Origin: Labedella gwakjiensis
GTDB lineage: Bacteria; Actinomycetota; Actinomycetes; Actinomycetales; Microbacteriaceae
Length of the DNA stretch: 64,000 bases
Assembly: GCF_003014675.1 (NCBI RefSeq)
Contig: NZ_PYAU01000001.1
Location: 1,116,001 to 1,180,000, forward strand
Direction: 5' to 3'
The notes under the pieces were generated by a model. The model was not told the DNA's origin, did no database searches, and was given only the letters and a program-made list of their open reading frames with translations. Both the position numbers and the translations under genes were made by a program. Shown here piece by piece: positions 7,236 to 28,449 of this stretch. Numbering within the stretch: position 1 is the stretch's first letter; each line of letters opens with the position of its first letter.

Positions 7236-8054
7236 TCAGCCGCGATCGGCGATGACCGACTGGAACGTCTCCGCTCCGGCCCGCACGGCGTCGGCGATCT
7301 GCGTCTTGTGCTCGGGCGTGAGCCGGTAGTCGGGAGCGACGATCGTGAGCGCACCGGCCGAGATGCCGTTGCTGTGCACGATGGCGGCGCTCGCCCACAC
7401 GCCGCGGTCGACCTCTCCGGCACTCTCCGCGTAGCCCGTGGCGCGCAGCGGCTCGAGGTCGGACTCGAGCTTGCCCTTCTCCTTCTTCGAGAGCGCCGGG
7501 CCGAGCCGGTTGAAGTACTGCGTGAGCTTGGCGGGGGTCAGCTCGCTGAGGAGGAGCTTCGCCGCCGCGCCGCCGTACAGGGGCATGAGGTTGCCCGGCT
7601 GGAAGGAGATGGAGATGGGGTGATCCGACTCGGCGATCGCGAGGCACACGGCCGAGTCGTTCACACGGCGCAGATAGAGGGCCGTCTCGCCGGTCTCCGC
7701 GGCCATCCGGTTGAGGATCGGCTGCACCTGGGAGCGGAAGTCGATCGCCGTCTCGGCCGCACGGGCGAGCCGCAGGATCTGCGGGGAGAGGACGAACCGC
7801 CCCTTCTCGCGCTCCTCGATGAGGTCGAGCTCACGCAGGAGTGAGATGTAGCGGTACGCGCTCGGCACGGAGATGTCGTGCTTCTCGAGAACGTTGTCGA
7901 CCGTGAGCTCCGGTGTGCTCTCGCTGAACTCGAGGAGGATCTGGAGAGCCCGGCGCGCACTGTCGACGCCCTTCGTGCGCTGCGGTTCTGCGGCCACGGG
8001 CTCGGTGGCCTGGGGCTCGGACTCCTGCGCGGCGGTCTCGTCGTTGGCTTTCAT
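7236..8054 (-). CDS. IclR-family transcriptional regulator, probably of B6 catabolism
   Basis: A 272-residue regulator. After an acidic, Ala/Glu-rich tail comes the winged helix (SARRALQILLEFSE, then VPSAYRYISLLRELDLIE), followed by the IclR effector-binding domain with ETALYLRRV and a RVGVW-like VDRGVWASAA segment. I chose the second of two adjacent ATGs (8054) because GGAG lies 6 bases upstream of it. It is the last gene of the BmpA-type importer operon and sits beside pyridoxine catabolic genes, so it is the best local candidate for sensing a B6 compound or pathway intermediate. IclR proteins commonly control aromatic and heterocyclic catabolism. Effector unknown. Confidence 0.88.
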   Translation of the reverse strand: MKANDETAAQESEPQATEPVAAEPQRTKGVDSARRALQILLEFSESTPELTVDNVLEKHDISVPSAYRYISLLRELDLIEEREKGRFVLSPQILRLARAAETAIDFRSQVQPILNRMAAETGETALYLRRVNDSAVCLAIAESDHPISISFQPGNLMPLYGGAAAKLLLSELTPAKLTQYFNRLGPALSKKEKGKLESDLEPLRATGYAESAGEVDRGVWASAAIVHSNGISAGALTIVAPDYRLTPEHKTQIADAVRAGAETFQSVIADRG

Positions 8055-8100
8055 CATCGGCTCCGCTCGATTGTACCGGCGCACCACAAACCCCGGACCG

Positions 8101-9036
8101 TCACCGGGCTCCGCGCGTGTAGGGGGTTCCGAGGGCCGGAGGGACCACGGAACTGCGGGCGAACACGATGAGCATGATGATGACGATGATGAACGGCAGC
8201 ATCTTGATGAGGTCGGCCGGCACGGTGTACCCGATCACTTGGAGCGCCGGCCCGACGGCCACGGCGAGACCGTAGACGAGCGACGTGATCATGACCACGA
8301 GGATCCGACCACGCGAGAGCATCGTGATCACGATGGCGATGAAGCCGAGGCCGTTCGTGACGTGCGGACTGAACGTCGCCGTCGTGAGGAGGGCGAGGTA
8401 GGCGCCGCCGAGGCCGACGAGCGCCCCGCTCAGCACGACGGCAGCCGACCGCGTGCGGACCACGCTGCCGCCCGCCGCGTCGAGCGACGACGGCTTCTGC
8501 CCGGCGGACCGCGTGGAGAGGCCCCAGTTTGTGCGCGCGAGCGCGAACGCCAGGGCGAGCAGGAGCACGACGCACACCCAGAAGATGCCCGACTGCTGGA
8601 AGATCGACTGCCCGACGATCGGGATGTCCGAGAGCCCGGGGATGACGAGCCGTGGCTGGCTGCCGAGGCTCGAGGGCGACGACGTGTAGTTCTGCAGGTA
8701 CAGCACGGTCGTGACGCCCTCGCCGATGAGCGTGACGGCGAGACCGATGACGATCTGGTTCAGTCCGAGCCACACGTTGAGCACGAGCATCGCCCCGTTG
8801 GCCACGACGCCGCCGATCATGCCGGCGATCATCCCGATCCAGAAGTTCCCCGTCACGAGGGTGACGACGAACCCCGTGTACGCGCCGATGAGCATGACGC
8901 CCTCGATGCCGAGGTTGAGCACGCCGGCCTGCTCGCCGATCGTCTCGCCGACGGCCGCGAGCATGAGCGGCATCGCCTGCGCGATCACCGTGGCGATGAA
9001 GACCGTGATGAAAGTGGCTGACAGCATCTCGCTCAT
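8101..9036 (-). CDS. ABC importer permease, NupQ-like (BmpA-type system)
   Basis: A 311-residue inner-membrane permease with about eight hydrophobic segments and the family hallmark GEQAGVLNLGIEGVMLIGA near residue 35. It pairs with the longer permease encoded just upstream. The start ATG overlaps that gene's stop by 4 bases (ATGA), so synthesis is coupled. Characterised relatives (for example Bacillus NupP/NupQ) take up nucleosides. Here the neighbours are pyridoxine-degrading enzymes, so the likely substrate is a B6 vitamer (inference). Confidence 0.88.
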   Translation of the reverse strand: MSEMLSATFITVFIATVIAQAMPLMLAAVGETIGEQAGVLNLGIEGVMLIGAYTGFVVTLVTGNFWIGMIAGMIGGVVANGAMLVLNVWLGLNQIVIGLAVTLIGEGVTTVLYLQNYTSSPSSLGSQPRLVIPGLSDIPIVGQSIFQQSGIFWVCVVLLLALAFALARTNWGLSTRSAGQKPSSLDAAGGSVVRTRSAAVVLSGALVGLGGAYLALLTTATFSPHVTNGLGFIAIVITMLSRGRILVVMITSLVYGLAVAVGPALQVIGYTVPADLIKMLPFIIVIIMLIVFARSSVVPPALGTPYTRGAR

Positions 9037-10148
9037 GCCGACGTCCTCTCCGATGTGCGGGCGAACGGTTGGACGATGGTGCGGCGGAGGCCCGCTGGCA
9101 GGTAGCTCTGCCCGAGCCGCCGGCGCTCGCCGATGAACTCGGTGATGGTCATGAAGAGCAGGATGAGTCCGACGATCACGAGGAGGAAGTCCACGTTGAG
9201 GCCCGCCTGCTGGGAGGCGAGCGTGCCGCCCGTGGCGAGTACGGCGTAGAACGCGACGAACGGGATGGCCGCGACGGGGCGGAACCGCGCGAGGAACACG
9301 AGAGGCATGACCGCGTCTCCGTACCGGGGGTCCCAGTCGGCGCGCTGGTACGTGAACTGTCCCAGGATGTCGATCGAGCCGGCGAGCGCGATGAGTCCGC
9401 TCGACAAGGCGAAGAGGAGCACGACCATCCACGTGGAGTTGAGGCCCACGTGGCGTGCGGCCTGCGGGCTCGCGCCGAAGATGTCGATCCGGAGACCGAA
9501 GGACGTTCGGCTGAGGACGTACTGCCCGAGGAACGCGAGGGCGATGGCGATGAGGAAGCCGATGTGGATCTGCGTGCCCGGGATGTAGGGCAGCAACTCG
9601 GTGTCGCCGATCACGGTGGTCTGCGGCGTCGTCACGTTCGGGTCCTTGAAGACGCCCTTGATGAGGAGGTTCACGACGCCGACCGCGATGAACGACATGA
9701 CGAGGGAGGTGATGATCTCGTTCGTGCCGTAGCGCGCCTTGAGGATCGCGGGCACGAGCGACCAGACCGCGCCGGTCAGGATGGCGACGAGGAAGATGAT
9801 CACGGTCGCAAGCGCCGCGGGCATCGACGCGAAGAGGATCGGACCGAGGCCCGACGCGACGACCGCGCCGAGCAGGTACTGGCCGTTGTAGCCCAGGTTC
9901 CACAGCTGGCCGCGGAAGGCCACGATGATGCCGATCGCGACGATGAGCAGCGGGGCCATGAGCGCGAGGCTGCGCTGCCAGTTGCTCCCCGTGATGCCGT
10001 ACTTCCAGACGCCGGCGAAGAAGTCGAGAGGGCTCGCGCCCATCGCGAGCATGATGAGCCCCGCCACGACGAGGGCGAGGAGGACGGGGACGACGGAGCG
10101 CACGAACCCCTGGGCGAGGCGCGCGGCCGTGGTGGTCTCGGTGGTCAT
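9033..10148 (-). CDS. ABC importer permease, NupP-like (BmpA-type system)
   Basis: A 371-residue permease with about nine hydrophobic segments and the motif FRGQLWNLGYNGQYLLGA, the counterpart of the NLGIEG segment in its partner. The central part shows the conserved KARYGTNEIITSLVMSFIA stretch. Both ends overlap neighbours by 4 bases: its start with the ATPase stop and its stop with the next permease start. It forms the transmembrane channel with that permease. Confidence 0.88.
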   Translation of the reverse strand: MTTETTTAARLAQGFVRSVVPVLLALVVAGLIMLAMGASPLDFFAGVWKYGITGSNWQRSLALMAPLLIVAIGIIVAFRGQLWNLGYNGQYLLGAVVASGLGPILFASMPAALATVIIFLVAILTGAVWSLVPAILKARYGTNEIITSLVMSFIAVGVVNLLIKGVFKDPNVTTPQTTVIGDTELLPYIPGTQIHIGFLIAIALAFLGQYVLSRTSFGLRIDIFGASPQAARHVGLNSTWMVVLLFALSSGLIALAGSIDILGQFTYQRADWDPRYGDAVMPLVFLARFRPVAAIPFVAFYAVLATGGTLASQQAGLNVDFLLVIVGLILLFMTITEFIGERRRLGQSYLPAGLRRTIVQPFARTSERTSA

Positions 10149-11743
10149 CGGTCCGTGCCTTCGATCGCGCCGGTCATGTACTGGCCCACCTTCTCCGCCG
10201 TTCCGGCGCCGTCGTTGACGATGTCGCCCACGAGGCGTCCGCGGGAGATCACCTGGATGCGGTGCGAGAGCTCGATGAGTTCGTCGAGGTCGGTGGAGAG
10301 GAGGAGGACGGAGCCGCCGGCGGCGGCGAAGTCCTTGAGGATCTCGCGCACGAGGTGCACGGTCTTGAGGTCGAGTCCGTAGGTGGGCTTGTTCACCACC
10401 ACGAGTCGGGCTCCGTTCTCGAGCTCGCGCGCGAGGAGGATCTTCTGGATGTTGCCGCCGGAGAGCGTTCCGGCACGGGTCTGGGGCGAGGGCGTGCGGA
10501 TGCCGTACTCCTCGATGAGGCGATCCGCCTCTGCCTCGACCGCTTTCGGCTGGATGCGTCCGGACTTCCAGAACGGCCGCTCGCCGATGCGCTTGATGAC
10601 GAGGTTGAGGGCCACGGACATCGATCCGACGGTGCCCTCGTGGAGGCGGTCGTCCGTGACGTACCGGATGCCGAGTCGCTGTCGGCCGCGCACCCCCGAG
10701 CGCGTGATGTCGTCGCCATCGAAGACGACGGAGCCGGACACGGCGGAGCGCTGGCCCGCGACGAGTTCCGAGAGGGCGCTCTGCCCGTGTCCGTCGATGC
10801 CGGCGATCCCGAGGATCTCGCCCTCCCGGAGGACGAGGGAGACGTCCTCGACCTCGACGTCGCGGCCGAGGCCGCGGCTGGACGCCCCGCGGAGCTCGAG
10901 GCGCACGGGACGGCTCGCGAAGTCGATCGCCTCCGTCTCCCTGCTGGCCTCGGTGGCGCCGGCGATCTCGCCCGCTTCGTCCCCGACCGCGGCGAGGTCC
11001 TCGCCGAACATCGCGGCGAGGATCGCGTCCTGCGCCTGCTGCTCGCTGTAGGTGGAGAGCTCCTCGGTGGAGATGTGTCCCACGTTGCGACCGCCGCGCA
11101 GGATGGTGACGCAGTCGCCCATTGCATACGCCTCGCGGAGCTTGTGGGTGATGAGCACGACGGCGAGGCCCTGCGCCGTGACGCGCTCGATGCTCTCGCC
11201 GAGGTTCTCGATCGCTTGCGGCGTGAGCATGGAGGTGGGCTCGTCGAGCACGAGGAGCCGGCTGCCCTTCCACATCGCCTTCGCGATCTCGACCTGCTGC
11301 TGCTGGCCGAGCCCGAGGTCGCCGGTGAGGGCATGCGGGTCGATGCGTACGCCGAGGAGGTCGGCGAGCTCGTCGAGACGCTCCGTGGCCCGCTTGGTGT
11401 CGAGCATCACGCCGGTCTCGCCGAGCATGAGGTTCTCGAGCACCGTGAACGCGGGTACGAGGGTGGAGTGCTGGTGGACGACGCCGATGCCGTGGTCCAC
11501 GGCGATCTTTGGCGACGTGATGTCGACGACCGAGCCGCCGATCGCGATGGTGCCGGAGTCGGGCTGCTGCATCCCGGCGAGGATGCTGATGAGCGTGGAC
11601 TTGCCGGCCCCGTTCTCGCCGAGGAGGCAGTGCACTTGCCCCGGCACGATGTCGAGGGAGATGTCGTCGTTGGCGATGACGCCGGGGAACGCCTTCGTGA
11701 TGCCGCGCAGAGAGATGACGTCGGTCGTGGCCGTTGCCGTCAC
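10145..11743 (-). CDS. ABC importer ATP-binding protein with two ABC domains (BmpA-type system)
   Basis: A 532-residue cytoplasmic ATPase made of two tandem ABC domains. The first has a complete Walker A (GENGAGKSTL), signature and Walker B (LLVLDEPTS). The second has the degenerate Walker A typical of this subfamily (GIDGHGQSAL) and a sugar-importer-like LSGGN signature. It energises the two permeases. The GTG start has AAGGAG 5 bases upstream. Relatives are often annotated as simple-sugar or nucleoside importer ATPases; the local context points instead to vitamin B6. Confidence 0.9.
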   Translation of the reverse strand: MTATATTDVISLRGITKAFPGVIANDDISLDIVPGQVHCLLGENGAGKSTLISILAGMQQPDSGTIAIGGSVVDITSPKIAVDHGIGVVHQHSTLVPAFTVLENLMLGETGVMLDTKRATERLDELADLLGVRIDPHALTGDLGLGQQQQVEIAKAMWKGSRLLVLDEPTSMLTPQAIENLGESIERVTAQGLAVVLITHKLREAYAMGDCVTILRGGRNVGHISTEELSTYSEQQAQDAILAAMFGEDLAAVGDEAGEIAGATEASRETEAIDFASRPVRLELRGASSRGLGRDVEVEDVSLVLREGEILGIAGIDGHGQSALSELVAGQRSAVSGSVVFDGDDITRSGVRGRQRLGIRYVTDDRLHEGTVGSMSVALNLVIKRIGERPFWKSGRIQPKAVEAEADRLIEEYGIRTPSPQTRAGTLSGGNIQKILLARELENGARLVVVNKPTYGLDLKTVHLVREILKDFAAAGGSVLLLSTDLDELIELSHRIQVISRGRLVGDIVNDGAGTAEKVGQYMTGAIEGTDR

Positions 11744-11780
11744 GGGTGCTCCTTGCCTGGGGAGGGGCGGATGGAGGGGT

Positions 11781-11816
11781 GGTCGGTGCCGAGGCGGGCG
11801 GGCCCCGGCACCGACC
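11781..11816 (-). terminator. Intra-operon hairpin between binding protein and ATPase genes
   Basis: GGTCGGTGCCG pairs perfectly with CGGCACCGACC (11 bp, 14-base loop). It lies between the binding-protein gene and the membrane/ATPase genes, where many ABC operons have a partial terminator or a 3'-stabilising stem that makes the binding protein more abundant. Confidence 0.6.
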
Positions 11817-11848
11817 GGTATGGGGGTTACTCCCCCGCTACTCGACCG

Positions 11849-12946
11849 TCACTCACCCTTGGCGGCGATGACGGCGGCGACCTCGTCGGCCGATGTCGCG
11901 ATCGTCGGCGTGATGGAGCCGTCGGAGATGCTCGCCGCTGCCGCGTCGACCGCTTCGGTGATCTCGGAGGTCAGCTGGTCCGTCTCCTGAAGGTACATTC
12001 CGCCGTTCTCCACGTCGACCGCGTACGTGGTGTCGCCGAAGGTGCCGGCCTCCACGTCCTTGATCGCCTGCACGTAGGCGGGCTCATAGTTCCAGCGCAC
12101 GGAGGTGAGTAGCTTGCTCGGGTCGCTGAGGCCCGGGGTCACGTCGCCGATGTCGGCGATGTACATGACGCCCTCAGAGGCCTCGATGGCCTGCAGGTAA
12201 CCGAGGGTCGCGCCGTCGCCCATGCCGAACACGACGTCGGCGCCCGACGCGATGATCTGCTCCGTCGCGACCTTGCCGCCGGCGGCGTCCGCGTATGCGG
12301 CCGGTCCCACGGAGGTGTAGAGCACCTGGATGGTGGGGTCGACGCTGTAGACACCCTCGGCGAAGCCGGAGGACATCGCGAACCAGTTGGCGTTGTCGGC
12401 CGAGACCACGATGCCGACCTTCTTGGAGGTCGTCGCCATGGCGGCGGCGACGCCCGCGAGGTAGCCGCCCTCCTGACCTTCCGGCTTCACGGCCGCGATC
12501 TGGTCTGGCACGTTCTCCTCCTCACCGGCGTCCTGGATGAGGATGGGCACGTTCTTGGCGGCCGCAGCCGCAGCGGCGCCGACGTTGTAGCCGGACGCGT
12601 GGGCCACGATGAACTGGGCTCCGCCGTCGGCGACCTGGTTGAGGACGGTCTCGATGTTGTCGTAGCCCGCGTCGGGCACGACGGTCACGTCGATGCCGAG
12701 CTCCTCAGCCGCGGCGTTCGCGGCCTCGATGCCCGCCTGGTTGTAGCCGTAGTCCGATTCGTTCTCGGGGGCGACGAGGGCGAACTGCGTGACCTCCGTG
12801 CCGGACGACGAGGCGTCGGTGTCGTCGGAGCCGCCCCCGCGACCCGAGGAGCAGGCGCTGAGAGCCACGACGAGGCCGCTCGCAACGGTGAGAACGAGCA
12901 CGCGTGACGCTGTACCGCGGCGGGGGCCGCCGGTGAATCTGTTCAT
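11849..12946 (-). CDS. BmpA-family substrate-binding lipoprotein, candidate B6-vitamer binder
   Basis: A 365-residue lipoprotein. It has a basic N-terminus, a hydrophobic segment and the lipobox VALSAC, then a Gly/Ser/Asp linker and a periplasmic-binding fold of the BmpA/Med type (NQAGIEAANAAAEELG, then VVFGMGDGATLGYLQA). The start ATG at 12946 follows a GAGGAAG ribosome-binding site and leaves a normal signal peptide. It is the first gene of the importer operon, behind a good promoter. Known relatives bind nucleosides. Because the operon adjoins pyridoxine oxidase, pyridoxal dehydrogenase and pyridoxolactonase, I infer that it binds pyridoxine, pyridoxal or a related pyridine. Confidence 0.88.
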   Translation of the reverse strand: MNRFTGGPRRGTASRVLVLTVASGLVVALSACSSGRGGGSDDTDASSSGTEVTQFALVAPENESDYGYNQAGIEAANAAAEELGIDVTVVPDAGYDNIETVLNQVADGGAQFIVAHASGYNVGAAAAAAAKNVPILIQDAGEEENVPDQIAAVKPEGQEGGYLAGVAAAMATTSKKVGIVVSADNANWFAMSSGFAEGVYSVDPTIQVLYTSVGPAAYADAAGGKVATEQIIASGADVVFGMGDGATLGYLQAIEASEGVMYIADIGDVTPGLSDPSKLLTSVRWNYEPAYVQAIKDVEAGTFGDTTYAVDVENGGMYLQETDQLTSEITEAVDAAAASISDGSITPTIATSADEVAAVIAAKGE

Positions 12947-13026
12947 TGCCGAGATCTTCCTCTCAGGGTGATGGGCCCCTGGGACTCGAGTGCTGCAAGC
13001 GAGAAATCGTCTTACATTGTGCAGGG

Positions 13027-13063
13027 GTAGCGCTACGATATGAGAATAAGTACCGGTTGCCAA
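13027..13063 (-). promoter_or_regulatory. Promoter of the BmpA importer operon with overlapping palindrome
   Basis: Read on the minus strand, TTGGCA (-35, plus positions 13058-13063) and TATCGT (-10, 13035-13040) are exactly 17 bases apart. A perfect 10-base palindrome, GTAGCGCTAC (13027-13036), overlaps the -10 and the expected start of transcription, where a repressor would block the operon. Untranslated leader about 80 bases. Confidence 0.5.
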
Positions 13064-13130: not shown

Positions 13131-13571
13131 ATGACCCGCCCGGCCCGCATCACCCGCTTTCTGCTCGTCGCCGCGGTGGCGACGCTGCTCTCGTCCTGCG
13201 CCTCGGAACCCGGCGCGCCCGTGACGGACACCGCGACGCCCACCGCGAGCCTCTCCGCCGAGGACGCGGCGGCGCTGTCGCGATTGGCCGAGGTGGCCGG
13301 CCCCACGTCGAACGTGGATCCGGACGCCATCACGAGCACCGAGTGCTGGCTCCCCTCAGAGCATCTCATCGACGACGAGACCGTGAACGACACGACATGG
13401 CGCGTGCTCTGCCGCGCCCACTACGTCGACGACAGCGGCGACCGGTACCAGGACGCGACGTGCGTCGGCGACTTCGCCGCCGAGCCGATGATCGACCACT
13501 GCTACCGCTGGGCGTTCTACACGGGCATGCCTCACTTCGAGGATTTCCCCGGCATCACCGCCGACCGCTGA
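13131..13571 (+). CDS. Small secreted lipoprotein of unknown function
   Basis: A 146-residue protein with a short basic N-terminus, a hydrophobic core and the lipobox LLSSC at about residues 17-21. A Thr/Ala-rich linker and a compact domain with four further cysteines (ECW, LCR, TCV, HCY) follow, suggesting two disulfides. AGGAGG lies 9 bases before the ATG. I do not recognise the family. It sits between the divergent importer promoter and the pyridoxolactonase gene, but has its own promoter region, so a link with B6 is only positional. Confidence 0.7.
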   Translation: MTRPARITRFLLVAAVATLLSSCASEPGAPVTDTATPTASLSAEDAAALSRLAEVAGPTSNVDPDAITSTECWLPSEHLIDDETVNDTTWRVLCRAHYVDDSGDRYQDATCVGDFAAEPMIDHCYRWAFYTGMPHFEDFPGITADR

Positions 13572-13611: not shown

Positions 13612-13639
13612 TTGACAGCCTTCGGAGTCTTCTCATAAC
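13612..13639 (+). promoter_or_regulatory. Promoter of the pyridoxolactonase operon
   Basis: A consensus -35 TTGACA (13612-13617) and CATAAC (13634-13639) are 16 bases apart, placing transcription start near 13646, about 43 bases before the ATG. AATTA and TAATT in the leader form a loose inverted repeat that could be an operator. Confidence 0.5.
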
Positions 13640-13688: not shown

Positions 13689-14447
13689 ATGACAGACCCG
13701 AAGGTGTACCTCCTCGACGGCGGCACGCTCGTGATCGACGAGTCGGACGTGCACTGGCACATCAACGCGGGCAATCCCGTGCGCTTCCCCGTCTACAGCG
13801 TGCTCATCGAGCACCCCGACGCCCTCATCCTCTTCGACACCGGGTTCGACCTCGACCACGTCAACGCCGTGCTCCCGTTCGAGCTGCCGATGCAGACGCC
13901 CGAGCAGACGATCCCCGCGCAGCTCGCGGCGTGCGGCTTCACGCCCGACGACGTCGACATCGTCGTGAACTCCCACTTCCACTTCGACCACGTCGGCGGC
14001 AACAAGCACCTCACGAAGGCGGAGACGCTCGTGCACGTGGAGGAGCTGCGGCACGCGAAGGTGCCGGAGCCGTTCGAGCGGCTCGGCTACTCGGACCTGT
14101 CCTTCGACCACAAGGACACCACCTACCGCCCCATCTCGGGCGACTTCGAGATCGTGCCGGGTGTGTGGCTCTTCGAGACCCCCGGCCACACGATCGGCCA
14201 CTACTCGCTGCTCGTGGAGCTCGAGAACGAGCGGAACATGCTGTTCTGCGGCGACGCCGCGTATACGCGCACGACCCTCGAGAAGGAGTGGATCGCCGGC
14301 TTCCACCTCGACCCCGCGAAGTCGGTGCAGGCGATCCGCCGCCTCAACTACCTCGCCCGCACGAAGAACGCCGACATCTACCCGTCGCACGAGCTCGCGT
14401 CCTTCGAGCAGTGGAAGCTCGCGCCCGACTTCTACGGCGGGCAGTAG
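13689..14447 (+). CDS. 4-Pyridoxolactonase (metallo-beta-lactamase fold)
   Basis: A 252-residue zinc hydrolase that opens 4-pyridoxolactone to 4-pyridoxic acid. The metal site NSHFHFDHVGG puts His96, His98, Asp100 and His101 at the same positions I recall for the Mesorhizobium loti enzyme. The N-terminus (KVYLLDGGTLVID), the GYSDLSF and PGHTIGHYSLLVE segments and the total length also agree with it. Generic annotation would call it an N-acyl-homoserine lactonase. The next two genes encode the enzymes that make its substrate, which decides the matter. GGAAG lies 4-5 bases before the ATG. Confidence 0.9.
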   Translation: MTDPKVYLLDGGTLVIDESDVHWHINAGNPVRFPVYSVLIEHPDALILFDTGFDLDHVNAVLPFELPMQTPEQTIPAQLAACGFTPDDVDIVVNSHFHFDHVGGNKHLTKAETLVHVEELRHAKVPEPFERLGYSDLSFDHKDTTYRPISGDFEIVPGVWLFETPGHTIGHYSLLVELENERNMLFCGDAAYTRTTLEKEWIAGFHLDPAKSVQAIRRLNYLARTKNADIYPSHELASFEQWKLAPDFYGGQ

Positions 14448-14537
14448 CCTCCGCCCACCCAGCGCTCCGCCCGACACCGCATCGCCCCAGCACGTCACCA
14501 CCCGAGAACGTCACCCGAGAACAGAGGACCGAAAGAC

Positions 14538-15272
14538 ATGCCCCACACCGACCAGCGCGTCGCCCTCATCACCGGCGCGGCCCAGGGCATCGGCGCCGCG
14601 ATCGCCGACGAGCTCGCCTCCGACGGCCTGCTCGTCGTCGTGGCCGACGTGAACCAGGAGGGCGCCGAGGCAGTGGCCGCGCGCAACGGCGGCGTCGCGA
14701 AGGTGCTCGACGTGAGCGACCCGGCGCGCGTCGCCGCAGTGGTCGCCGAGGTCGTGGAGGAGTTCGGGCGGATCGACGTGCTCGTGAACAACGCGGCCCT
14801 CGTGCCGCTCACCCCCTGGGCGGACATCTCGTTCGAGGAGTGGCGGCGCGTCATGTCCGTGAACCTCGACGGCATCTACCTCATGACCCACGCCGTCACA
14901 CCCATCATGGGGAAGGCCGGCTACGGCCGCATCGTCAACATCGCCTCGAACACCTTCGTGGCCGGAACGCCGAACTGCGCGCACTACGTCGCCACGAAGG
15001 GCGCGTCGATCGGTCTCGTCCGCGGCCTCGCCGGCGAGCTCGGCCCCCTCGGCATCACGATCAACGCCGTGGCCCCCGGCATCATCGCGAGCGAGGGCGT
15101 TCTCGGCGGCCCGCACGAGTCCGGCTTCGACTACGTCGTGCCCATGCAGGCCTTCGACCGCCGTGGTCTCCCCCAGGACGTCGCCCCCGCCGTCGCGTTC
15201 CTCGCCTCCGAGAAGGCTGGCTGGGTCACCGGCCAGACCCTCGTGGTCGACGCCGGCCACACCCGCAACTGA
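14538..15272 (+). CDS. Pyridoxal 4-dehydrogenase (short-chain dehydrogenase)
   Basis: A 244-residue NAD-dependent dehydrogenase that oxidises pyridoxal (as the hemiacetal) to 4-pyridoxolactone. It has the nucleotide loop TGAAQGIG (12-19), NNAA, and the catalytic set Ser137 / Tyr150 / Lys154 in ASNTF and YVATK. The run NIASNTFVAGTPN is very close to the M. loti pyridoxal dehydrogenase as I recall it, and the end WVTGQTLVVDAG is typical of the family. It lies between the lactonase and the pyridoxine oxidase. The enzyme purified from Microbacterium luteolum is, as I recall, an aldo-keto reductase, so this strain would use the rhizobial type. Confidence 0.88.
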   Translation: MPHTDQRVALITGAAQGIGAAIADELASDGLLVVVADVNQEGAEAVAARNGGVAKVLDVSDPARVAAVVAEVVEEFGRIDVLVNNAALVPLTPWADISFEEWRRVMSVNLDGIYLMTHAVTPIMGKAGYGRIVNIASNTFVAGTPNCAHYVATKGASIGLVRGLAGELGPLGITINAVAPGIIASEGVLGGPHESGFDYVVPMQAFDRRGLPQDVAPAVAFLASEKAGWVTGQTLVVDAGHTRN

Positions 15273-15280
15273 GCCCGGCC

Positions 15281-16822
15281 ATGGCCTCCGACGTCCTCAT
15301 CATCGGGGCGGGGTCGGCGGGGAGCGTCGTCGCGAACCGCCTGAGCGCCGACCCGTCCCGCACGGTGACCGTGCTCGAATCCGGCGAGCGCGTGACGGAT
15401 CCGGAGATGCGGCGGCCCGAGCTGTGGCCGTTCATCCACGGACGCTCCTACGACTGGGCGTATCGGACGACGCCGCAGAAGGGACTCGCCGGGCGCTCGC
15501 TCGACTGGGCTCGCGGCCGCGGTCCGGGCGGCTCGAGCCTCGTGCACGCGATGGCTCACATGCGTGGCTGCCGCGCCGACTTCGCCCGCTGGGTGGAGGC
15601 GACGGGTGACGAGCGCTGGTCGTGGGATTCTCTCCTCCCCTCCTTCATCCGTTCGGAGTCGTTCTCCGGCGGAGCGAGCGACGTGCACGGCGATTCCGGT
15701 CCCCTCCCCGTGCTGCTTCCGGGCCCGGATCTGTCGAGCCCGCTCGTGCTCGACTACCTCGCGGCGTGGGAGGCGCTCGGCGTGCAACGGATCCCCGACC
15801 ACAACGGCGGGGAGATGCTCGGCGCCACCCCCAACTCGCTGACCACCCGCGACGGTGAGCGCGTGACCGTGTCCGACGTCTACCTCGACCCGGTGCTGGG
15901 CCGCCCGAACCTCACGCTGCTCACCGGGGTGACCGTGCACCGGCTGATCGTGTCGCGCGGCCGGGTCACCGGTGCGGCCGTCACGCGCGACGGCCGCGAC
16001 GAGATCATCGAGGCCGACACCGTGATCCTCTGCGGAGGGTCGATCGGCGATCCCCTTCTTCTCATGCGTTCGGGCATCGGCGACCCGGAGGTGCTCGGCG
16101 CCGCCGGAGTCGAGACGGTGCTCGAGTCGCCCGAGGTGGGCCGCAACCTCCACGACCACCTGCTCGGCGCCGGCAACCTCTACTCCTCTCGCATCCCCGT
16201 TCCGCCGAGCCGACTGCAGCTGTCGGAGTCGATGACGTACCTGTCGAAGGACGGCTGGGAGCGCACGAGCGGAGCGGCGGACATCGTGGTGGGCTGCGTC
16301 GTCGGCCCGAGTGCGTCCGAGTCGTTCACGGCGGAGGCCGCGCACGTCGCGCCGGGCGCTGGCTACACGCTCCTCTTCGGCGTCACGAACCCGACGAGCC
16401 GCGGCTCACTCCGCATCTCCGGGCCGGACATCGGAGACGAGCCGATCATCGACCCCAACTACCTCGACACCGAGCACGACCGCGAGATGTTCCGCCTCGC
16501 CCTCGAGCACGCGCGCATGGTCGGCCGATCGGACGAGCTCGCCCGCTGGCGCGACTCGGAGGTCCTGCCCGGCCCCTCGGTCTCGACGCCGGAGGAGGCC
16601 GACGCCTTCATCGCGCGAGCCGCGATCACGCACCACCACCCCGTCGGCACCCTGCGGATGGGCCACACGGACGACGCCCCAGTGACCCCCGACCTGCGCT
16701 TCCGCGGCGTCGACGGGCTCCACGTCGTTGACGCGTCCGTGATCCCGTCGATCACGGCCGGCCCGGTGCACGCCTCGGTGCTCGCGATCGCGGAGTCGTT
16801 CTCGGCGGCGGCGTCCTACTGA
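15281..16822 (+). CDS. Pyridoxine 4-oxidase (GMC flavoprotein)
   Basis: A 513-residue FAD enzyme of the glucose-methanol-choline family that oxidises pyridoxine to pyridoxal with O2. It shows the Rossmann start LIIGAGSAGSVVANRLS, the GMC segment WARGRGPGGSS, NLHDHLLGAGNLY, the active-site region ITHHHPVGTLRMG and the end DASVIPSITAGPVHASVLAIAE. Several of these runs (GRSYDW, VPPSRLQ-SES, HLLGAGNLY) match the structurally known M. loti pyridoxine 4-oxidase as I remember it. It starts 8 bases after the dehydrogenase stop. It is the only GMC gene in the window, so it cannot also supply a separate 4-pyridoxate dehydrogenase unless it is promiscuous. Confidence 0.92.
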   Translation: MASDVLIIGAGSAGSVVANRLSADPSRTVTVLESGERVTDPEMRRPELWPFIHGRSYDWAYRTTPQKGLAGRSLDWARGRGPGGSSLVHAMAHMRGCRADFARWVEATGDERWSWDSLLPSFIRSESFSGGASDVHGDSGPLPVLLPGPDLSSPLVLDYLAAWEALGVQRIPDHNGGEMLGATPNSLTTRDGERVTVSDVYLDPVLGRPNLTLLTGVTVHRLIVSRGRVTGAAVTRDGRDEIIEADTVILCGGSIGDPLLLMRSGIGDPEVLGAAGVETVLESPEVGRNLHDHLLGAGNLYSSRIPVPPSRLQLSESMTYLSKDGWERTSGAADIVVGCVVGPSASESFTAEAAHVAPGAGYTLLFGVTNPTSRGSLRISGPDIGDEPIIDPNYLDTEHDREMFRLALEHARMVGRSDELARWRDSEVLPGPSVSTPEEADAFIARAAITHHHPVGTLRMGHTDDAPVTPDLRFRGVDGLHVVDASVIPSITAGPVHASVLAIAESFSAAASY

Positions 16823-17869: not shown

Positions 17870-17980
17870 GGGGGGAGAGTAGCGCTCATTCGAGGAACAG
17901 TTAACAGAGGATCTATGCGCGACGCAGGCAGACTGGTCTAGCCTCCGTAACACGTCCGATTCGTGCTGGGAGTCCCGTCA

Positions 17981-20395: not shown

Positions 20396-20515
20396 TTCGC
20401 CATGTCGAATTGCGACTAATTGACTGAGTTGCGGCCCGGAGAACGTCGGGACTGGGCTACGCGAAGCGCCATGCTGAGCGGTGCATCACCGGCCTAGTGC
20501 CGGACGGCCGACGCT

Positions 20516-22125: not shown

Positions 22126-22134
22126 AAGTAAAGC

Positions 22135-22179
22135 GTATCAATTGTGAGACATAATTCTAGATTGCCTCATAATTGATAC
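22135..22179 (-). promoter_or_regulatory. Long inverted-repeat operator upstream of the HTH-Fic operon
   Basis: GTATCAATTGTGAG (22135-22148) and CTCATAATTGATAC (22166-22179) are inverted copies matching at 13 of 14 positions, with centres 31 bases apart (three helical turns). The element is AT-rich in GC-rich surroundings and sits directly before the GTG of the HTH gene, so it overlaps the promoter. Very probably the binding site of the HTH protein itself. Confidence 0.65.
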
Positions 22180-22353
22180 TTAAACTCAAGTTGCCGTTCG
22201 TATCGACGAAATGCGGACGAGTCGCCTGGCATTGCCGAGGATGAAGAATGACGTGAGCGACGGCGAAGGAAATGGGTATCCGACGGAGTTCACGTGACGA
22301 TGTCCCCCGAAGGGAGAAGAGCGTTTCGCTTTTCCGCCTTATTCCTCGCGCGG

Positions 22354-23611: not shown

Positions 23612-24067
23612 TCAGGGACGGCTGAAGGTGCCGATGAAACGCGCCTGCTCGGCGATGTTGCCGGCGTAGGTCGTGAGGAAACCCTCGCGGGACGGCTCGC
23701 CCTCCACCTTCGTCTGCAGCGCGTAGACCCAGAAGTAGTAGTGGTGCTCGCCGTGGCCGGCCGGCGGCTGCGGGCCGAACCAGCTCGACTCGCCGAGGGT
23801 GTTCGGCCCCACGCGCACGCCGTCCGCCTCGAGGTCGAGGGTCGTGGCGTCGGGCGCGACGCCGTAGACCACCCAGTGCGTGAAGCCGTTGGGCAGCGGG
23901 GCGTCGGGGTCGTGCACGATGACCGCGAGCTCGACGGTGCCCTCGGGGGCGCCCGAGAACGAGACGGAGGGCGTGTCGTTGCCTCCGTCGGCGCTGAAGT
24001 TCTCCGGGATGCGCTCGAGGTTCTGGATGTCGGCGCTCGAGATGGCGAGGTCGGCGAAGAGGGGCAT
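23612..24067 (-). CDS. YbhB/YbcL-like protein (PEBP family)
   Basis: A 151-residue protein of the phosphatidylethanolamine-binding / Raf-kinase-inhibitor-like family. The ligand-site segments are present: VIVHDPDAPLPNGFTHWVVY near residue 50 and PPAGHGEHHYYFWVYAL near 100. Bacterial members have no settled function. It is the last gene of the B6 lower-pathway operon, 18 bases after the hydrolase, so it is co-transcribed. A role in B6 breakdown is not known and may be coincidental. Confidence 0.85.
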   Translation of the reverse strand: MPLFADLAISSADIQNLERIPENFSADGGNDTPSVSFSGAPEGTVELAVIVHDPDAPLPNGFTHWVVYGVAPDATTLDLEADGVRVGPNTLGESSWFGPQPPAGHGEHHYYFWVYALQTKVEGEPSREGFLTTYAGNIAEQARFIGTFSRP

Positions 24068-24085: not shown

Positions 24086-24925
24086 TCAGATGCCGAGAGC
24101 GCGAGCGATCTCGGCGGCAACGATGTCGGGGTTCTCTTCGGGAATGTAATGGTCGGCCGCGGGCACGTCGACCCACCGGTCCTCGGGGCGATCCTGTGCT
24201 GCACGTTCCCACGCGGCCTCGCTCACGATCGCACTCGCGCTGCCGCGGAGGTGCGTCATGGCGGTGGGAACGGAGCGAAACTCCTCGTCGAACGGCGTGC
24301 GGAAGCCGTCGATGAGCTGTGCCATCGCGGACGGAGAGGCGAGGGGTGCCCAGCCCCCGTCGGCCGTGGGCTGGTAGCCCCAGCGGGCCCGGCGCGAGAC
24401 GGCCCCCGGCAGGATCTTCGGGTAGCGGGCGGCGAGGTACGCCTCGATCTCGGCGACATCCGCGAACTCACGGAACCCGCCGGCCACGCGCACCGCGAGC
24501 TCGTCGAGCACGTCCGCCTCGACGTACGGCGTGTAGTCCACGACGACGGCTCCCGAGACGCGGTCGGGATGCAGCGCCGCCGCGAGCCACGCGTTCCGCC
24601 CGCCGAGCGAGTGACCGGCCACGAGGGCGTGCTCGATGCCGAGGGCGTCGAGGACGGTGACGACGTCGGTCACGAAGTCGTCACCCGCGTAGCCGTGATC
24701 CGGCTTGTCGCTGCGGCCGTGACCGCGCTGGTCGAGCGCGATGACGGTCGCCCGGTCGGCGAGCAGGTCGCCGACCGGCTCCCACACGGCGTGGTTCGCC
24801 GACGTGCCGTGCAGGAGCACGACGGCCGGGCCGGCCCCCCGCACCCGGAACGCCAGCTCTATGCCGGCGCCCCGGGTGCGGGAGAGGCCGTCGCCGATGT
24901 CGACGACGGAGGGCGTCAGGGCCAT
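24086..24925 (-). CDS. (E)-2-(acetamidomethylene)succinate hydrolase (alpha/beta hydrolase)
   Basis: A 279-residue hydrolase for the last step of B6 degradation, releasing succinic semialdehyde, acetate, ammonia and CO2. The nucleophile elbow GHSLGG puts Ser106, and the acid is Asp130 in VVVDYTPYVEADVL. These are the very numbers I recall for the M. loti enzyme, with the histidine in AADHYIPEENP near 259. The oxyanion HGTSAN segment and DQRGHGRSDKPDHGY also fit. Its ATG overlaps the preceding stop by one base (TGATG). Without context it would be annotated as a generic alpha/beta hydrolase. Confidence 0.9.
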   Translation of the reverse strand: MALTPSVVDIGDGLSRTRGAGIELAFRVRGAGPAVVLLHGTSANHAVWEPVGDLLADRATVIALDQRGHGRSDKPDHGYAGDDFVTDVVTVLDALGIEHALVAGHSLGGRNAWLAAALHPDRVSGAVVVDYTPYVEADVLDELAVRVAGGFREFADVAEIEAYLAARYPKILPGAVSRRARWGYQPTADGGWAPLASPSAMAQLIDGFRTPFDEEFRSVPTAMTHLRGSASAIVSEAAWERAAQDRPEDRWVDVPAADHYIPEENPDIVAAEIARALGI

Positions 24926-25860
24926 CAGACGTTCGGGATCGAGGCCAGCGTCTTCCGCGCGGCGATGAGGCCCGTGATGATCTCCTTGCGCTTGGCGTCC
25001 ACGTCGCCCTCGCCGTACTCGTACATTCCGCCGTTCGACTTGAAGCCGAGCTGGCCGGCGGCGATCTTGTCCTTGATGAACTCCGGGGTGTCCGTGCTGT
25101 TGTCGAGGTCCTTGTTGAGGTAGCTCGAGACCGCCTGGTAGATGTCGAGGCCGGCCATGTCGAGCAGGCGCGTAGGGCCGACGACGGAGAGCTTGTAGCC
25201 GATGCCCCATTTCACGCACGCGTCGAGGCCCTCTGGCGTGACGATGCCCTCTTCGAGGAGCGCCATGCACTCGCGGAGGATCGCGTAGAGCACGCGGTTC
25301 TCCACGAAGCCGGGGATCTCCTTCTCGAGAACGGGCACGTAGTTGAACGCCTTCACGATCTCGATGAGCCGGTCGACGTGCTCCGGAGCGGTCGCGTTGC
25401 CGGGGATCACCTCGATCATGGGGATGAGGTGCGGCGGGTTCGACCAGTGCATGCCGATGAGGCGCGCGGGCACCGTCATCGACTCCGCCATCGTGCTGAT
25501 GGGGATGCCGGACGTGTTCGTGGCGATGATGACGTCGTCGCCGATGCGCGCCTCGAGGTCGGCGAGAACCGAGCGCTTGAGCTCGAGCTTCTCGGGGACG
25601 GCCTCGATGATGAGCTCGGTGTCGGCGAGCGCCGCGTCGAGGTCGGTGCCGAACGTGACGGATCCGCCGGGGGCCGACGGGGAGTCGACGGCCTCGAGGA
25701 CGCCGCGCACCATGTCGTACGCAGCCTCGGCGCGCGTGATGGCGTCGGCGGAGATGTCGTACAGGCGCACGGTGGCGCCGGCGCGGGCGAGGGTGGCGGC
25801 GATGCCCGGGCCCATGGTGCCCGAACCGATGACGGTGGCGATCGTGGGGAGACTGCTCAT
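24925..25860 (-). CDS. 5-Formyl-3-hydroxy-2-methylpyridine-4-carboxylate 5-dehydrogenase (3-hydroxyacyl-CoA-dehydrogenase fold)
   Basis: A 311-residue NAD enzyme that oxidises the 5-formyl group of the pyridine intermediate to the dicarboxylate. The Rossmann loop is IGSGTMGPGIAATLARAG (11-28). The active site GMHWSNPPHLIPMIEVI carries His138 and Glu150, one off from the His137/Glu149 pair I recall in the M. loti enzyme. The GFVENRVLYAILRE and SWGIGYK-like KWGIGYKLSVVGP segments follow. M. loti FHMPC dehydrogenase is described as a dismutase that can also interconvert FHMPC and 4-pyridoxate. That matters here because no separate 4-pyridoxate dehydrogenase is visible. Without context it would be mistaken for a fatty-acid enzyme. 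Confidence 0.9.
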   Translation of the reverse strand: MSSLPTIATVIGSGTMGPGIAATLARAGATVRLYDISADAITRAEAAYDMVRGVLEAVDSPSAPGGSVTFGTDLDAALADTELIIEAVPEKLELKRSVLADLEARIGDDVIIATNTSGIPISTMAESMTVPARLIGMHWSNPPHLIPMIEVIPGNATAPEHVDRLIEIVKAFNYVPVLEKEIPGFVENRVLYAILRECMALLEEGIVTPEGLDACVKWGIGYKLSVVGPTRLLDMAGLDIYQAVSSYLNKDLDNSTDTPEFIKDKIAAGQLGFKSNGGMYEYGEGDVDAKRKEIITGLIAARKTLASIPNV

Positions 25861-25913: not shown

Positions 25914-26693
25914 TCAGATGCCCGGCGGGAGGGCGATCGGCGAGATGCCGAGGCCGAACGCGGCCTCCACCCGATCGAGGCGGCGGTTGAAGAAGGTCCA
26001 GAAGTTGTGCTGGGCCTTCGCCGGGTAGATGCGGTCGAACTTCTCCTTCGTCTCCTCGGCGTCCGGCTCGAGGGGCGAGAAGCCCGATGCCTTGAGGTCG
26101 ACCTGGAAGCGCGCGGCCTTCTCGAGGAAGATGCCCGTGAGCGTCACCTCGGCCACGGTGCTGCCGACGAAGGCGACGCCGTGGTTGGCGAGGAGGAGCG
26201 CCTGCGCGTCGCCGAGCGCCTGCGCGGCCGAGACACCGAGCGGCACGGTCGTGATGATGTGGCTCGTCTCGGCGAAGCGCGGAACACCCTCGTACGCGAA
26301 CCACACGCCGTGGTTGTTGTACGGCTTGAGGGTCTCGTCCGATGCGCCGAGCACCGTCGAGTAGTGGGCGTGCGAGTGACCGACGAAGTTGACGTCGGGG
26401 CGCGCCTTCATGATCTCGGCGTGCAGCGGCCACTCGAGGTGGCGCAGGCCGGTGCCCTCGAGAACGGCACCGTCGAAGTCGATGAGGATGAAGTCGTCGC
26501 CCTCCACCTCGCTGAGCGCGAGGTTGCCGCGCTTCAGCCAGAGGCCGCGGCCGAACGGGTCCCGGAACGAGAGGTGGCCCATCGACATGTCGCCGTGGCC
26601 CTCCAGCTCGAGGATCCGGTGCGCCCGCGCGACGTCCGCGAGGATGCTGGCGATGGACTGGTCTTCGAAGTACGGGTTGTGCGAGTAGGTCAC
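25914..26693 (-). CDS. 3-Hydroxy-2-methylpyridine-4,5-dicarboxylate 4-decarboxylase (class II aldolase fold)
   Basis: A 259-residue metal enzyme of the class II aldolase/adducin family. The metal ligands are visible as Glu87 (HLEWPLHAE), His106 and His108 (GHSHAHYS) and His171 (LANHGVAFVG). In M. loti the equivalent gene product is a Mn-dependent decarboxylase that removes the 4-carboxylate of the pyridine dicarboxylate. Assignment rests on the fold plus its place between the FHMPC dehydrogenase and the ring-cleaving oxygenase; a sugar-phosphate aldolase role is unlikely here. GTG start with AGGAG 5 bases upstream. Confidence 0.85.
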   Translation of the reverse strand: MTYSHNPYFEDQSIASILADVARAHRILELEGHGDMSMGHLSFRDPFGRGLWLKRGNLALSEVEGDDFILIDFDGAVLEGTGLRHLEWPLHAEIMKARPDVNFVGHSHAHYSTVLGASDETLKPYNNHGVWFAYEGVPRFAETSHIITTVPLGVSAAQALGDAQALLLANHGVAFVGSTVAEVTLTGIFLEKAARFQVDLKASGFSPLEPDAEETKEKFDRIYPAKAQHNFWTFFNRRLDRVEAAFGLGISPIALPPGI

Positions 26694-26734: not shown

Positions 26735-27313
26735 TCAGGCGCCGGTCACGTCGGCCACGGTCATACCGCCGACGCGGGCGTTCACCCGGCCGCCGGTGGC
26801 CACGGCAGCGATGACGACGATCTCGTCCGGGCGCGGGGCGTCCGGGAGCGTGATCGTGATCGCGTCGTAGTGCGACCGCACGTAGACCTCATCCTTGTAC
26901 GCGAGCGGCACATCGATCGAGGTCCCCGTGCCTGCGACCTTCGTGGCGGAGGAGATCCAGGCCTCTCCACCGCCGACGGCTGCACGGAGGGCGTTGCCGA
27001 ACACGGTCGTGACGCAGGCCACGATGTGCTCCTGCTCGCCGTTGACTCCGACGAGGCCGCCCTTGCCGTAGCTCTCCACGGGACGACCGCCGAGCAGGGC
27101 GACGGCGCGTTCGCCGAGCTCGCGCCCGAGGCCCTCGCTCGCGTCGGTGAGGGGCGAGAGGTCCTCCACCCAGCGCCCGGCGAACGGGTTGCGGAACACG
27201 ACCGCGACGGCCGCCTTCACGAGGGGCTGCTCGGGGGCCGGACCGAGCTCGTGCACGGTCTCCTGGACGAAGGAGTGCCAGGCGCGGACGGCGTAGATCG
27301 AATCGATGGTCAT
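26735..27313 (-). CDS. AA_synth-family protein (PF06684/DUF1185) in the B6 operon
   Basis: A 192-residue cytoplasmic protein of the so-called amino acid synthesis family, with the typical segments YGKGGLVGVNGEQEHIVACVTTVFGNALR and GGEAWISSATKVAGTGTSIDVPLAYKDEVYVRSHYD in part. Despite its name, no reaction is established for the family to my knowledge. It overlaps the oxygenase gene by 4 bases, so it is made together with it. That argues for a role in the pathway, perhaps handling an unstable ring-opened intermediate (inference). Confidence 0.85.
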   Translation of the reverse strand: MTIDSIYAVRAWHSFVQETVHELGPAPEQPLVKAAVAVVFRNPFAGRWVEDLSPLTDASEGLGRELGERAVALLGGRPVESYGKGGLVGVNGEQEHIVACVTTVFGNALRAAVGGGEAWISSATKVAGTGTSIDVPLAYKDEVYVRSHYDAITITLPDAPRPDEIVVIAAVATGGRVNARVGGMTVADVTGA

Positions 27314-28449
27314 GGGGTCGTCACCTCGTGTCGCTGGGGGTCGGTCGGGTTGTAGAGGGCCGTGCGGATGCTGTCGCCGACGAACTGGTTGCCCTTCGCC
27401 ATCTCGCGGGTGTCGGCGTACCACTGCGAGCGGTCCTGGGCGAGGTCGGTGATGGGGCGCTCGAGGCGCTCCCACTCACGGAGGGCTTCCGGCATGTCGT
27501 CGGTCGCGGCTGTGGCCGCGGCGGCGAGGGTCCACGCGTTCTGCATCGCGGTGCCGGCACCCTGCGCGAGCGCGGGACACATCGCGTGGGCGGAGTCGCC
27601 GATGAGCGCGACCTTGCCCTCCGTCCAGCGGTCGAGGCGCGTGGTCTGGTAGCCGTAGTAGCGGCCGGGGATGCGGGCGGCGTCCTCGAGGACGGGGGCG
27701 AGCTGCGGGAACACGGACGTCCACAGCTCGAGGTCGATCGGCACGCGCGAACCATCGGCGTCGGCGGACGGCGACATGAGCGCGATGTAGAGCTCCTCGT
27801 CGTTCGCCGGCGTGTAGAGGATGCGGAGCACGCGGGGGTCGAGGTTCCAGAAGTCGATGACGTTGTCCCACTCGGTGTCCGGTTCGAGCGCCTGCAGCTC
27901 GGCCTTGCGGCGAGGGACGAGGAAGCGCGTGATGCCGTCGCCCGACCGCTCGCGCTTGAGGGGGATCCCGAGCGAATCGCGCACGGCCGAGCCGACGCCG
28001 TCCGCACCGACCACGAGGTCGGCCTCGGCCGTCTCCCCCGAGGCGAACGTGACCGTGCCGTCGGCGGTGGCGCCGACCACCTCCGATCCGGCGATGACCT
28101 CGACGCCCGACTCGCGCGCCGCCGTGAGCAGGCTCGCGTGGAGGTGGGGCCGCGTCATGGTGCGCCAGCGCACGCCCTCGAGCGTCTCCTGCGACTGGAT
28201 GACGTTGTTCATCCGCGTCTCATACGCCGGCGGGGTCATCGAGCGCGAGGCGAGATCGGGTCCGGCGCCGATGCGATCGAGCACCTGGAGGCTGTTGTTC
28301 CAGAGCACGATGCCGGCGCCCTCGGCGCGCAGCTCGCGCGCACGCTCGTGCACCCGCACGCTCCAGCCCATCTGGGCGAGGGCCGTGGCCACGGTCAATC
28401 CGGCGAAACCCCCGCCGGAGATCTCGGCACGTCGTCGGCTGTCGGTCAT
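27310..28449 (-). CDS. 2-Methyl-3-hydroxypyridine-5-carboxylate oxygenase (FAD, ring-cleaving)
   Basis: A 379-residue flavin monooxygenase, the same length as the M. loti enzyme (MHPCO). The FAD loop is ISGGGFAGLTVATALAQMGW (about 10-29). The DG motif is VVGADGVGSAVRDSLG, and the GD motif is KVALIGDSAHAMCPALAQGAG in part. Runs such as GAGI-LW-N, MTRPHLHA-L and WNLDPRVLRILY match what I recall of MHPCO. It adds both oxygen atoms to the pyridine ring and opens it to acetamidomethylene succinate. A generic annotation would be salicylate hydroxylase-like, but the neighbours fix the substrate. Confidence 0.92.
   Translation of the reverse strand: MTDSRRRAEISGGGFAGLTVATALAQMGWSVRVHERARELRAEGAGIVLWNNSLQVLDRIGAGPDLASRSMTPPAYETRMNNVIQSQETLEGVRWRTMTRPHLHASLLTAARESGVEVIAGSEVVGATADGTVTFASGETAEADLVVGADGVGSAVRDSLGIPLKRERSGDGITRFLVPRRKAELQALEPDTEWDNVIDFWNLDPRVLRILYTPANDEELYIALMSPSADADGSRVPIDLELWTSVFPQLAPVLEDAARIPGRYYGYQTTRLDRWTEGKVALIGDSAHAMCPALAQGAGTAMQNAWTLAAAATAATDDMPEALREWERLERPITDLAQDRSQWYADTREMAKGNQFVGDSIRTALYNPTDPQRHEVTTP

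Follow-up and report, generated by a model that had tools for sequence, protein, structure and literature searches.

Which substrate is carried by an importer with the fold of nucleoside-binding systems when its genes lie beside a pathway for the breakdown of vitamin B6? This question is raised by the window analysed here, a stretch of 64,000 nucleotides from Labedella gwakjiensis (assembly GCF_003014675.1, contig NZ_PYAU01000001.1, positions 1,116,001 to 1,180,000; the 3.84 Mb genome is one contig), in which five minus-strand genes running from 12946 to 7236 encode an ATP-binding cassette (ABC) importer of the BMP/Nup type and a linked regulator. On genomics alone, we give a probability of roughly 87% to the reading that the cell uses this system to take up unphosphorylated vitamin B6 for catabolism. 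All five genes (bmpA, the double ATPase gene, two permease genes and iclR) are intact and uninterrupted.

11849..12946, minus strand: BmpA-type substrate-binding lipoprotein, 365 aa (Pfam Bmp; NF047927, 436.9 bits, cut-off 400)
10145..11743, minus strand: double ATPase, 532 aa (Pfam ABC_tran in two stretches; NF047930, 784.9 bits, cut-off 670)
9033..10148, minus strand: permease, permease 2 model (BPD_transp_2; NF047929, 487.1 bits, cut-off 400)
8101..9036, minus strand: permease, permease 1 model (BPD_transp_2; NF047928, 326.1 bits, cut-off 465)
7236..8057, minus strand: IclR-family regulator, 273 aa (Pfam IclR_C and HTH_IclR)

A preliminary description of this locus had reported a complete five-gene importer; all the genes were found where it had placed them, and Pfam confirmed their families. 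The composition is that of the BMP/Nup type, with a PF02608 binding protein, a double ATPase and two PF02653 permeases in one operon, and overlapping ATGA motifs occupy both the ATPase/permease and the permease/permease junctions. As read from the sequence, the N-terminus of BmpA is a signal peptide with a lipobox at its end. Each of the four subunits has an NCBIfam model named 'putative B6 ABC transporter', and the binding protein, the ATPase and permease 2 (three of the four) pass their cut-offs. The idea of a B6 importer is therefore already in the database, marked 'putative'. The same description had also known of no characterised ABC importer for pyridoxine or pyridoxal and had suggested a possible new substrate class. 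As worded, this claim to novelty does not hold in view of these models and of two earlier systems: P5PA of Actinobacillus is a characterised binding-protein ABC importer for pyridoxal 5'-phosphate (PLP) (PMC8427247), and HmpT is an energy-coupling factor (ECF) importer for pyridoxamine (PMC4860826). Its central proposal, a likely specificity for vitamin B6, gains support from the NCBIfam models, co-occurrence, the linked enzymes and the changed residues of the nucleoside pocket.

The upper B6 operon (13689-16822) is divergent from the importer, as had been described, and its lactonase and dehydrogenase score over the NCBIfam cut-offs while its oxidase matches PDB 4HA6. The first divergent gene, overlooked in that layout, is a small lipoprotein gene at 13131-13571 and not the lactonase. 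A lower B6 operon spans 23612 to about 29647 and comprises the oxygenase, two further pathway enzymes listed here and others.

13689..14447, plus strand: 4-pyridoxolactonase (NF047925, 426 bits, cut-off 325; best PDB match 3AJ3, 259 bits, next 118)
14538..15272, plus strand: pyridoxal 4-dehydrogenase of the short-chain dehydrogenase/reductase (SDR) type (NF047923, 382 bits, cut-off 325; best PDB match 3NDR, 243 bits, next 184)
15281..16822, plus strand: pyridoxine 4-oxidase, GMC family (PDB 4HA6, 573 bits, next different protein 257)
23612..24067, minus strand: PEBP (YbhB-like) protein of the lower operon (PF01161; copies 53-75% identical in the B6 stretches of relatives)
24086..24925, minus strand: N-acetylaminomethylene-succinate (AAMS) hydrolase, lower pathway (PDB 3KXP, 223 bits, sole match at <=1e-25)
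24925..25860, minus strand: 5-formyl-3-hydroxy-2-methylpyridine 4-carboxylate 5-dehydrogenase (FHMPC dehydrogenase; PDB 4OM8, 298 bits, next 154)
25914..26693, minus strand: class II aldolase-fold protein, retained in relatives and weakly assigned as a possible lower-pathway decarboxylase
27310..28449, minus strand: 2-methyl-3-hydroxypyridine-5-carboxylate oxygenase, ring opening (PDB 3ALJ, 402 bits, next different protein 108)

Six window enzymes have solved B6-degradation enzymes as their best PDB match, entries that we take to come from Mesorhizobium loti, and together they make up the set of the Mesorhizobium-type pathway: oxidase, 4-dehydrogenase, lactonase, FHMPC dehydrogenase, ring-opening oxygenase and AAMS hydrolase. 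For the aldolase-fold protein, PDB 2Z7B (Mlr6791) ranks fourth at 64 bits, and the best aldolase scores 80 bits. No separate gene for 4-pyridoxate dehydrogenase was identified among the window B6 genes, with no search aimed at one; the pathway may lack this step here, or another enzyme may carry it out.

The association between importer and pathway recurs within the family. In a sample of 398 Microbacteriaceae genomes, with the binding protein and the lactonase called at E 1e-60 or better, the binding protein occurs in 25 genomes, 4-pyridoxolactonase in 24 and both in 23, so that the lactonase is present in 23/25 importer genomes versus 1/373 others (Fisher p ~6e-34, uncorrected for shared ancestry). 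The pair is found in 14 genera; the host's own genus is represented by four listed genomes, of which two carry the pair and two carry neither gene. The importer-only genomes are G397 and G562, in the latter of which a lactonase fragment runs off the contig end, and the only genome with the lactonase alone (G713) is 79% complete. We then compared 20 stretches fetched from 19 genomes, 19 of which include bmpA, with 20 control stretches around other BMP genes. A lactonase match lies in 17 of the 19 bmpA stretches (one a contig-end fragment) versus 0/20 controls; it is missing from L142 and from L147, which is 4.2 kb long and belongs to a genome that carries the lactonase on a separate contig (L148). 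None of the controls gave a match above 60 bits for lactonase, oxidase, oxygenase, hydrolase, FHMPC dehydrogenase or pyridoxamine-pyruvate aminotransferase (PPAT), and the lone control match was a generic SDR at 91 bits (L163). The preliminary description had named pyridoxine 4-oxidase as the expected companion of this subclade. The oxidase does occur in 13 of the 19 importer stretches versus 0/20 controls, but the importer's link to it is looser than that to the lactonase, with six stretches lacking it: L142, L143 (contig end), L144, L145, L147 (4.2 kb) and L149. A sample of 396 genomes at the order level was uninformative in its sampling: a weak BMP match occurs in 338, yet the NF047927 cut-off is passed by the host only, and no genome but the host's shows the lactonase at E 1e-60.

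In 13 of the 20 fetched Microbacteriaceae stretches, a PPAT homologue directly follows permease 2. Six of these 13 were scanned at full length and have PPAT as their best NCBIfam model, at 406-439 bits and under the cut-off of 600; the best PDB match of one is 2Z9U (347 bits, next 144), an entry labelled aspartate aminotransferase that we take to be the Mesorhizobium PPAT. The host genome has nothing above 42.3 bits against the PPAT cut-off of 600, and the substrates here are therefore probably pyridoxine and pyridoxal. PdxS is present in the host, which probably makes its own PLP, so import would probably serve for food and not for cofactor supply.

Wider relatives of the importer were compared as well. 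A genome-collection scan yielded 263 tblastn relatives, and the 80 most similar to the window were analysed. Among these best 80 of 263 loci, at marker thresholds chosen after the scores were seen, some marker is present in 64; a homologue of the lactonase is present in 49, and one of either the lactonase or PPAT in 60. The subclade spans actinobacteria and alphaproteobacteria, and the lactonase association recurs in alphaproteobacteria and in other actinobacteria. In one locus (L098, 8089-14922), pdxS and pdxT lie directly upstream of bmpA, followed by the ATPase and two permease genes, all in one direction; this is an association with the synthesis of B6 (PLP), independent of breakdown, in a single case. 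A plasmid search with bmpA returned five records, 41-42% identical: three (L034, L035, L036) combine bmpA with lactonase-like, PPAT and 4HPA-hydroxylase genes, and in the two from Thioclava the 4HPA-hydroxylase cluster is the sole companion of bmpA.

A plasmid search with the lactonase returned 101 records and was set aside; among the matches listed (40), identities were 29.6-30.2% and nearly all were annotated as N-acyl homoserine lactonases. Separately, in L034 (3418-11128), L073, L082, L089, L092 and L101, PPAT, a 4HPA 3-hydroxylase-like protein and amidases stand beside the same importer subclade. In L034 this cluster includes a distant lactonase. It is apparently a different B6 or pyridine breakdown cluster.

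The binding protein itself departs from the nucleoside-binding pattern. In Borrelia BmpA, the nucleoside-binding residues given in the accessible text of PMC13325309 include Phe27, Phe176, Asp98, Asp225 and Lys242. We aligned 50 B6-type proteins with 26 other BMPs, mapping residues by alignment and spacing, without coordinates. The controls were those left after 5 of 31 had been removed by a filter that allowed no internal stop and required an [FYW]N[QDE] motif; because of this motif filter, the conservation of Phe27 and Asn28 among them is partly due to selection. In the B6-type members, the position of Phe27 is Trp in 46/50 and Tyr in 4/50, that of Phe176 is Tyr in 50/50, that of Lys242 is Trp in 50/50, and that of Phe151 is Gln in 27, Met in 21 and His in 2. 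The window residues aligned to the nucleoside pocket are Tyr68, Tyr218, Asp139, Ala264 and Trp285, so that by alignment the window BmpA keeps only Asp98 from the set of two stacking Phe, Asp98, Asp225 and Lys242 that marks nucleoside-binding BMPs. An aromatic pocket without the ribose-side lysine would suit a small neutral pyridine. In a quick tree the B6 subclade stands apart from the 26 controls with support 100, and 41 of the 50 members reach an E-value corresponding to the NF047927 cut-off.

Several observations weigh against B6 import. The permease at 8101..9036 falls under the NF047928 cut-off, though this is by far its best model. One importer genome, G397 (locus L142), has the importer and the lipoprotein, but the genome search found no lactonase in it and no B6 enzyme lies close by, which may reflect either salvage use or a decaying cluster; in addition, L142 gives no iclR match. 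Among the best 80 loci, 16 are without any marker; ten of these lie on stretches shorter than 15 kb, and six lie on stretches of at least 15 kb (L052, L064, L085, L098, L113, L114). Furthermore, L081, L088 and the Thioclava plasmids L033 and L037 adjoin a 4HPA-hydroxylase cluster without lactonase or PPAT, and some alphaproteobacterial loci carry a cluster of 4HPA-hydroxylase and amidase genes in place of these markers. Such loci suggest that the subclade may also carry another pyridine, and they favour the best-surviving alternative, that the system imports not a free vitamer but a B6 breakdown product or related pyridine, such as 4-pyridoxate, a B6 glucoside or another hydroxypyridine. These compounds would enter the same pathway. 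However, the linked lactonase, dehydrogenase, oxidase and PPAT homologues act before 4-pyridoxate, and the pairing with PLP synthesis genes in L098 is left unexplained, which makes this alternative improbable.

It could also be argued that the system imports nucleosides, as ordinary BMP-type importers do, and adjoins B6 genes by chance. The AlphaFold2 model of BmpA (predicted local distance difference test, pLDDT, 88) has PnrA of S. pneumoniae, Lbp and AtzT as its best fold matches, which places it in the fold and family of nucleoside-binding proteins. The position of Asp98 is still Asp in 42/50 members, the window included, and that of Asp225 in 40/50 (Ala in the window). The aromatic swaps by themselves are weak evidence, since Borrelia BmpC varies there too, with Tyr replacing the first Phe and Leu the second in the accessible text of PMC13325309. 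What speaks against nucleosides is the replacement of the pocket lysine by Trp in every aligned member, together with the occurrence of importer and lactonase in 14 genera and their association in alphaproteobacteria and other actinobacteria. The host genome also has two other, weaker-scoring BMP genes, and downstream of one of these systems, which is among the controls, at about 4.5 and 6 kb, lie a pyrimidine nucleoside phosphorylase and an adenosine deaminase, so that a nucleoside importer is probably present elsewhere in the genome. We consider a nucleoside substrate very unlikely for the window system. Import of phosphorylated B6 (PLP) has a precedent in P5PA and is the least credible alternative, because no Lys or Arg reaches 90% conservation in the 50-member alignment, which disfavours a phosphate ligand, because P5PA belongs to another family (COG1840), and because B6 pathway enzymes act on free vitamers.

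Import of free vitamers thus remains the favoured reading, and we asked how such a system relates to those already described. The same four-gene order as in the NCBIfam putative B6 ABC transporter is seen in Thioclava and Rhizobium plasmids, and the Microbacteriaceae version differs by adding the small lipoprotein and iclR, neither of which gave a tblastn match in the loci fetched from beyond that family. With the BMP/PnrA nucleoside importers (PnrA, BmpA, BmpD), the system shares the fold, the double ATPase and two BPD_transp_2 permeases, whereas the window subclade has Trp or Tyr for the stacking Phe27, Tyr for Phe176 and Trp for Lys242. The riboflavin-binding protein RfuA (PDB 4IIL) is an example of a BMP-like fold serving a vitamin, but its identity in the fold alignment is 19% and its ligand class is different. 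P5PA and HmpT/PdxU (ECF) are proven or proposed B6 importers, yet they belong to COG1840/PF13531 and COG4720, respectively, none of them BMP, and no tie to B6 breakdown is noted in the literature consulted. According to a survey of 2023, no more than three B6 transporters have been characterised in prokaryotes, and the substrates of two of them verified (PMC9997740). PMC5320631 mentions a putative pyridoxine transporter of the BenE family, and the available sections of that paper and of PMC7093131 hold nothing on a BMP-type B6 importer. In the openly licensed literature we found no assay of a BMP-type B6 importer or of this subclade, which is not proof of absence, and no published transporter for the Mesorhizobium-type B6 degradation pathway.

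The DNA between and around the divergent operons contains repeated short sites, which could be promoter elements.

13009..13046, bmpA-lipoprotein gap: candidate operator, with a degenerate arm at 13009-13016 and an exact arm, TATGAGAA, at 13039-13046, 30 bp apart
13630..13637, plus strand: second candidate half-site, TTCTCATA, whose end lies 52 bp ahead of the lactonase start (the window has 2 such sites versus 0.15 expected)

Candidate sites of the type TTCTCAYA/TATGAGAA precede the importer, the lipoprotein and the lactonase, and in eight loci (L143, L150, L151, L153, L154, L155, L160, L161) the arms of the inverted pair TTCTCAYA...TATGAGAA have a spacing of exactly 30 bp. There are 40 half-sites in 348 kb of 18 B6 stretches versus 2 in 398 kb of 20 control stretches, a description rather than a test because the pattern was derived from some of the loci counted. 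L142 and L149 have zero half-sites, and the window shows no enrichment of a longer degenerate form of the operator when two mismatches are allowed (4 copies against 6.9 expected). Of the 20 fetched relative stretches, 17 retain an IclR homologue scoring at least 189 bits, which makes IclR the obvious, though inferred, candidate reader of these sites. The whole genome has two copies of TTCTCAYANNNTG, one ahead of the lactonase and one at 789651; the latter copy was set aside, as no partner arm lies within the 200 bases viewed.

The gene that separates the importer from the upper operon encodes a protein of an unnamed family.

13131..13571, plus strand: small lipoprotein, 146 aa, with a lipobox and, by alignment, four conserved cysteines in the mature part

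It has no NCBIfam or Pfam match at E 0.01, its profile finds no PDB relative at E 1, the plasmid search gave no match, and its structure model is poor (pLDDT 64, nine sequences). The distribution of the gene is sharply defined: it occurs once each in 26 of the 398 genomes, the exact union of the importer and lactonase genomes, and in 0 of the 372 others, and tblastn did not detect it in the 20 control stretches. All 24 aligned copies have the four cysteines in the mature part. The lipobox pattern missed the copies of L142 and L144, both of which have a cysteine at the same position, and the CW motif is missing from those of L148 and L149. In loci that separate importer from lactonase, the lipoprotein gene is upstream of the lactonase: L145, L149, L144 (by about 2.2 kb) and L148 (a short contig); G713 has lipoprotein and lactonase with no importer detected, and G397, without B6 enzymes, has the lipoprotein upstream of bmpA. 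The lipoprotein is thus tied to the B6 system as a whole, with the genomics divided between importer and enzymes. Being lipid-anchored, it probably works at the outer face of the membrane. It might be a dedicated sixth part of the importer in Microbacteriaceae, one whose task would be to capture B6 compounds, deliver them to the BmpA system or process them for it, although we hold this tentatively and at slightly less than even odds, as in the rearranged loci it stays with the lactonase and not with bmpA. To our knowledge, and with no search of the literature aimed at this point, no accessory lipoprotein has been described for any BMP-type importer.

The remaining parts of the window offered some side observations. 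Within the lower operon, the PEBP gene is retained across Microbacteriaceae and is also present in Jiella (L103), and a PF06684 (AA_synth) protein at 26735-27313 is retained in the lower B6 operons of relatives. The Labedella-like locus L146 has no lower B6 operon within its stretch. Between the two operons lies a lower-GC block (16979-22959) that encodes an FRG-domain protein (PADLOC PDC-S15 models), an OLD/GajA-like ATPase, a helix-turn-helix protein and a Fic-like protein under the Pfam cut-off. Homologues of the block genes are absent from the fetched loci, and upper and lower operons adjoin in L156, L157 and L159; the block is possibly a defence-type insertion.

Taken as a catabolic importer, the system would work as follows. 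Lipid-anchored BmpA would capture pyridoxine or pyridoxal outside the membrane and pass the vitamer to the two permeases, powered by the one double ATPase. Directly observed are the gene content, the family and enzyme matches, the co-occurrence and the shared DNA sites, from which we propose the substrate, the inward direction, the pairing of regulator and sites and the role of the lipoprotein. Inside, pyridoxine 4-oxidase, pyridoxal 4-dehydrogenase and 4-pyridoxolactonase would begin the breakdown, and the lower operon would open the ring, turning vitamin B6 into a source of carbon and nitrogen. The linked IclR probably controls the importer and the upper-pathway genes through the TTCTCAYA/TATGAGAA sites, with the lipoprotein probably acting on the outward side of the membrane. 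Bacterial B6 transporters are a recognised gap (PMC9997740). The enzymes linked to this importer subclade have known substrates, and its 50 aligned members share the change of the pocket Lys to Trp; the lipoprotein finding, in turn, places an unnamed family clearly within a pathway and points to a role that can be tested.

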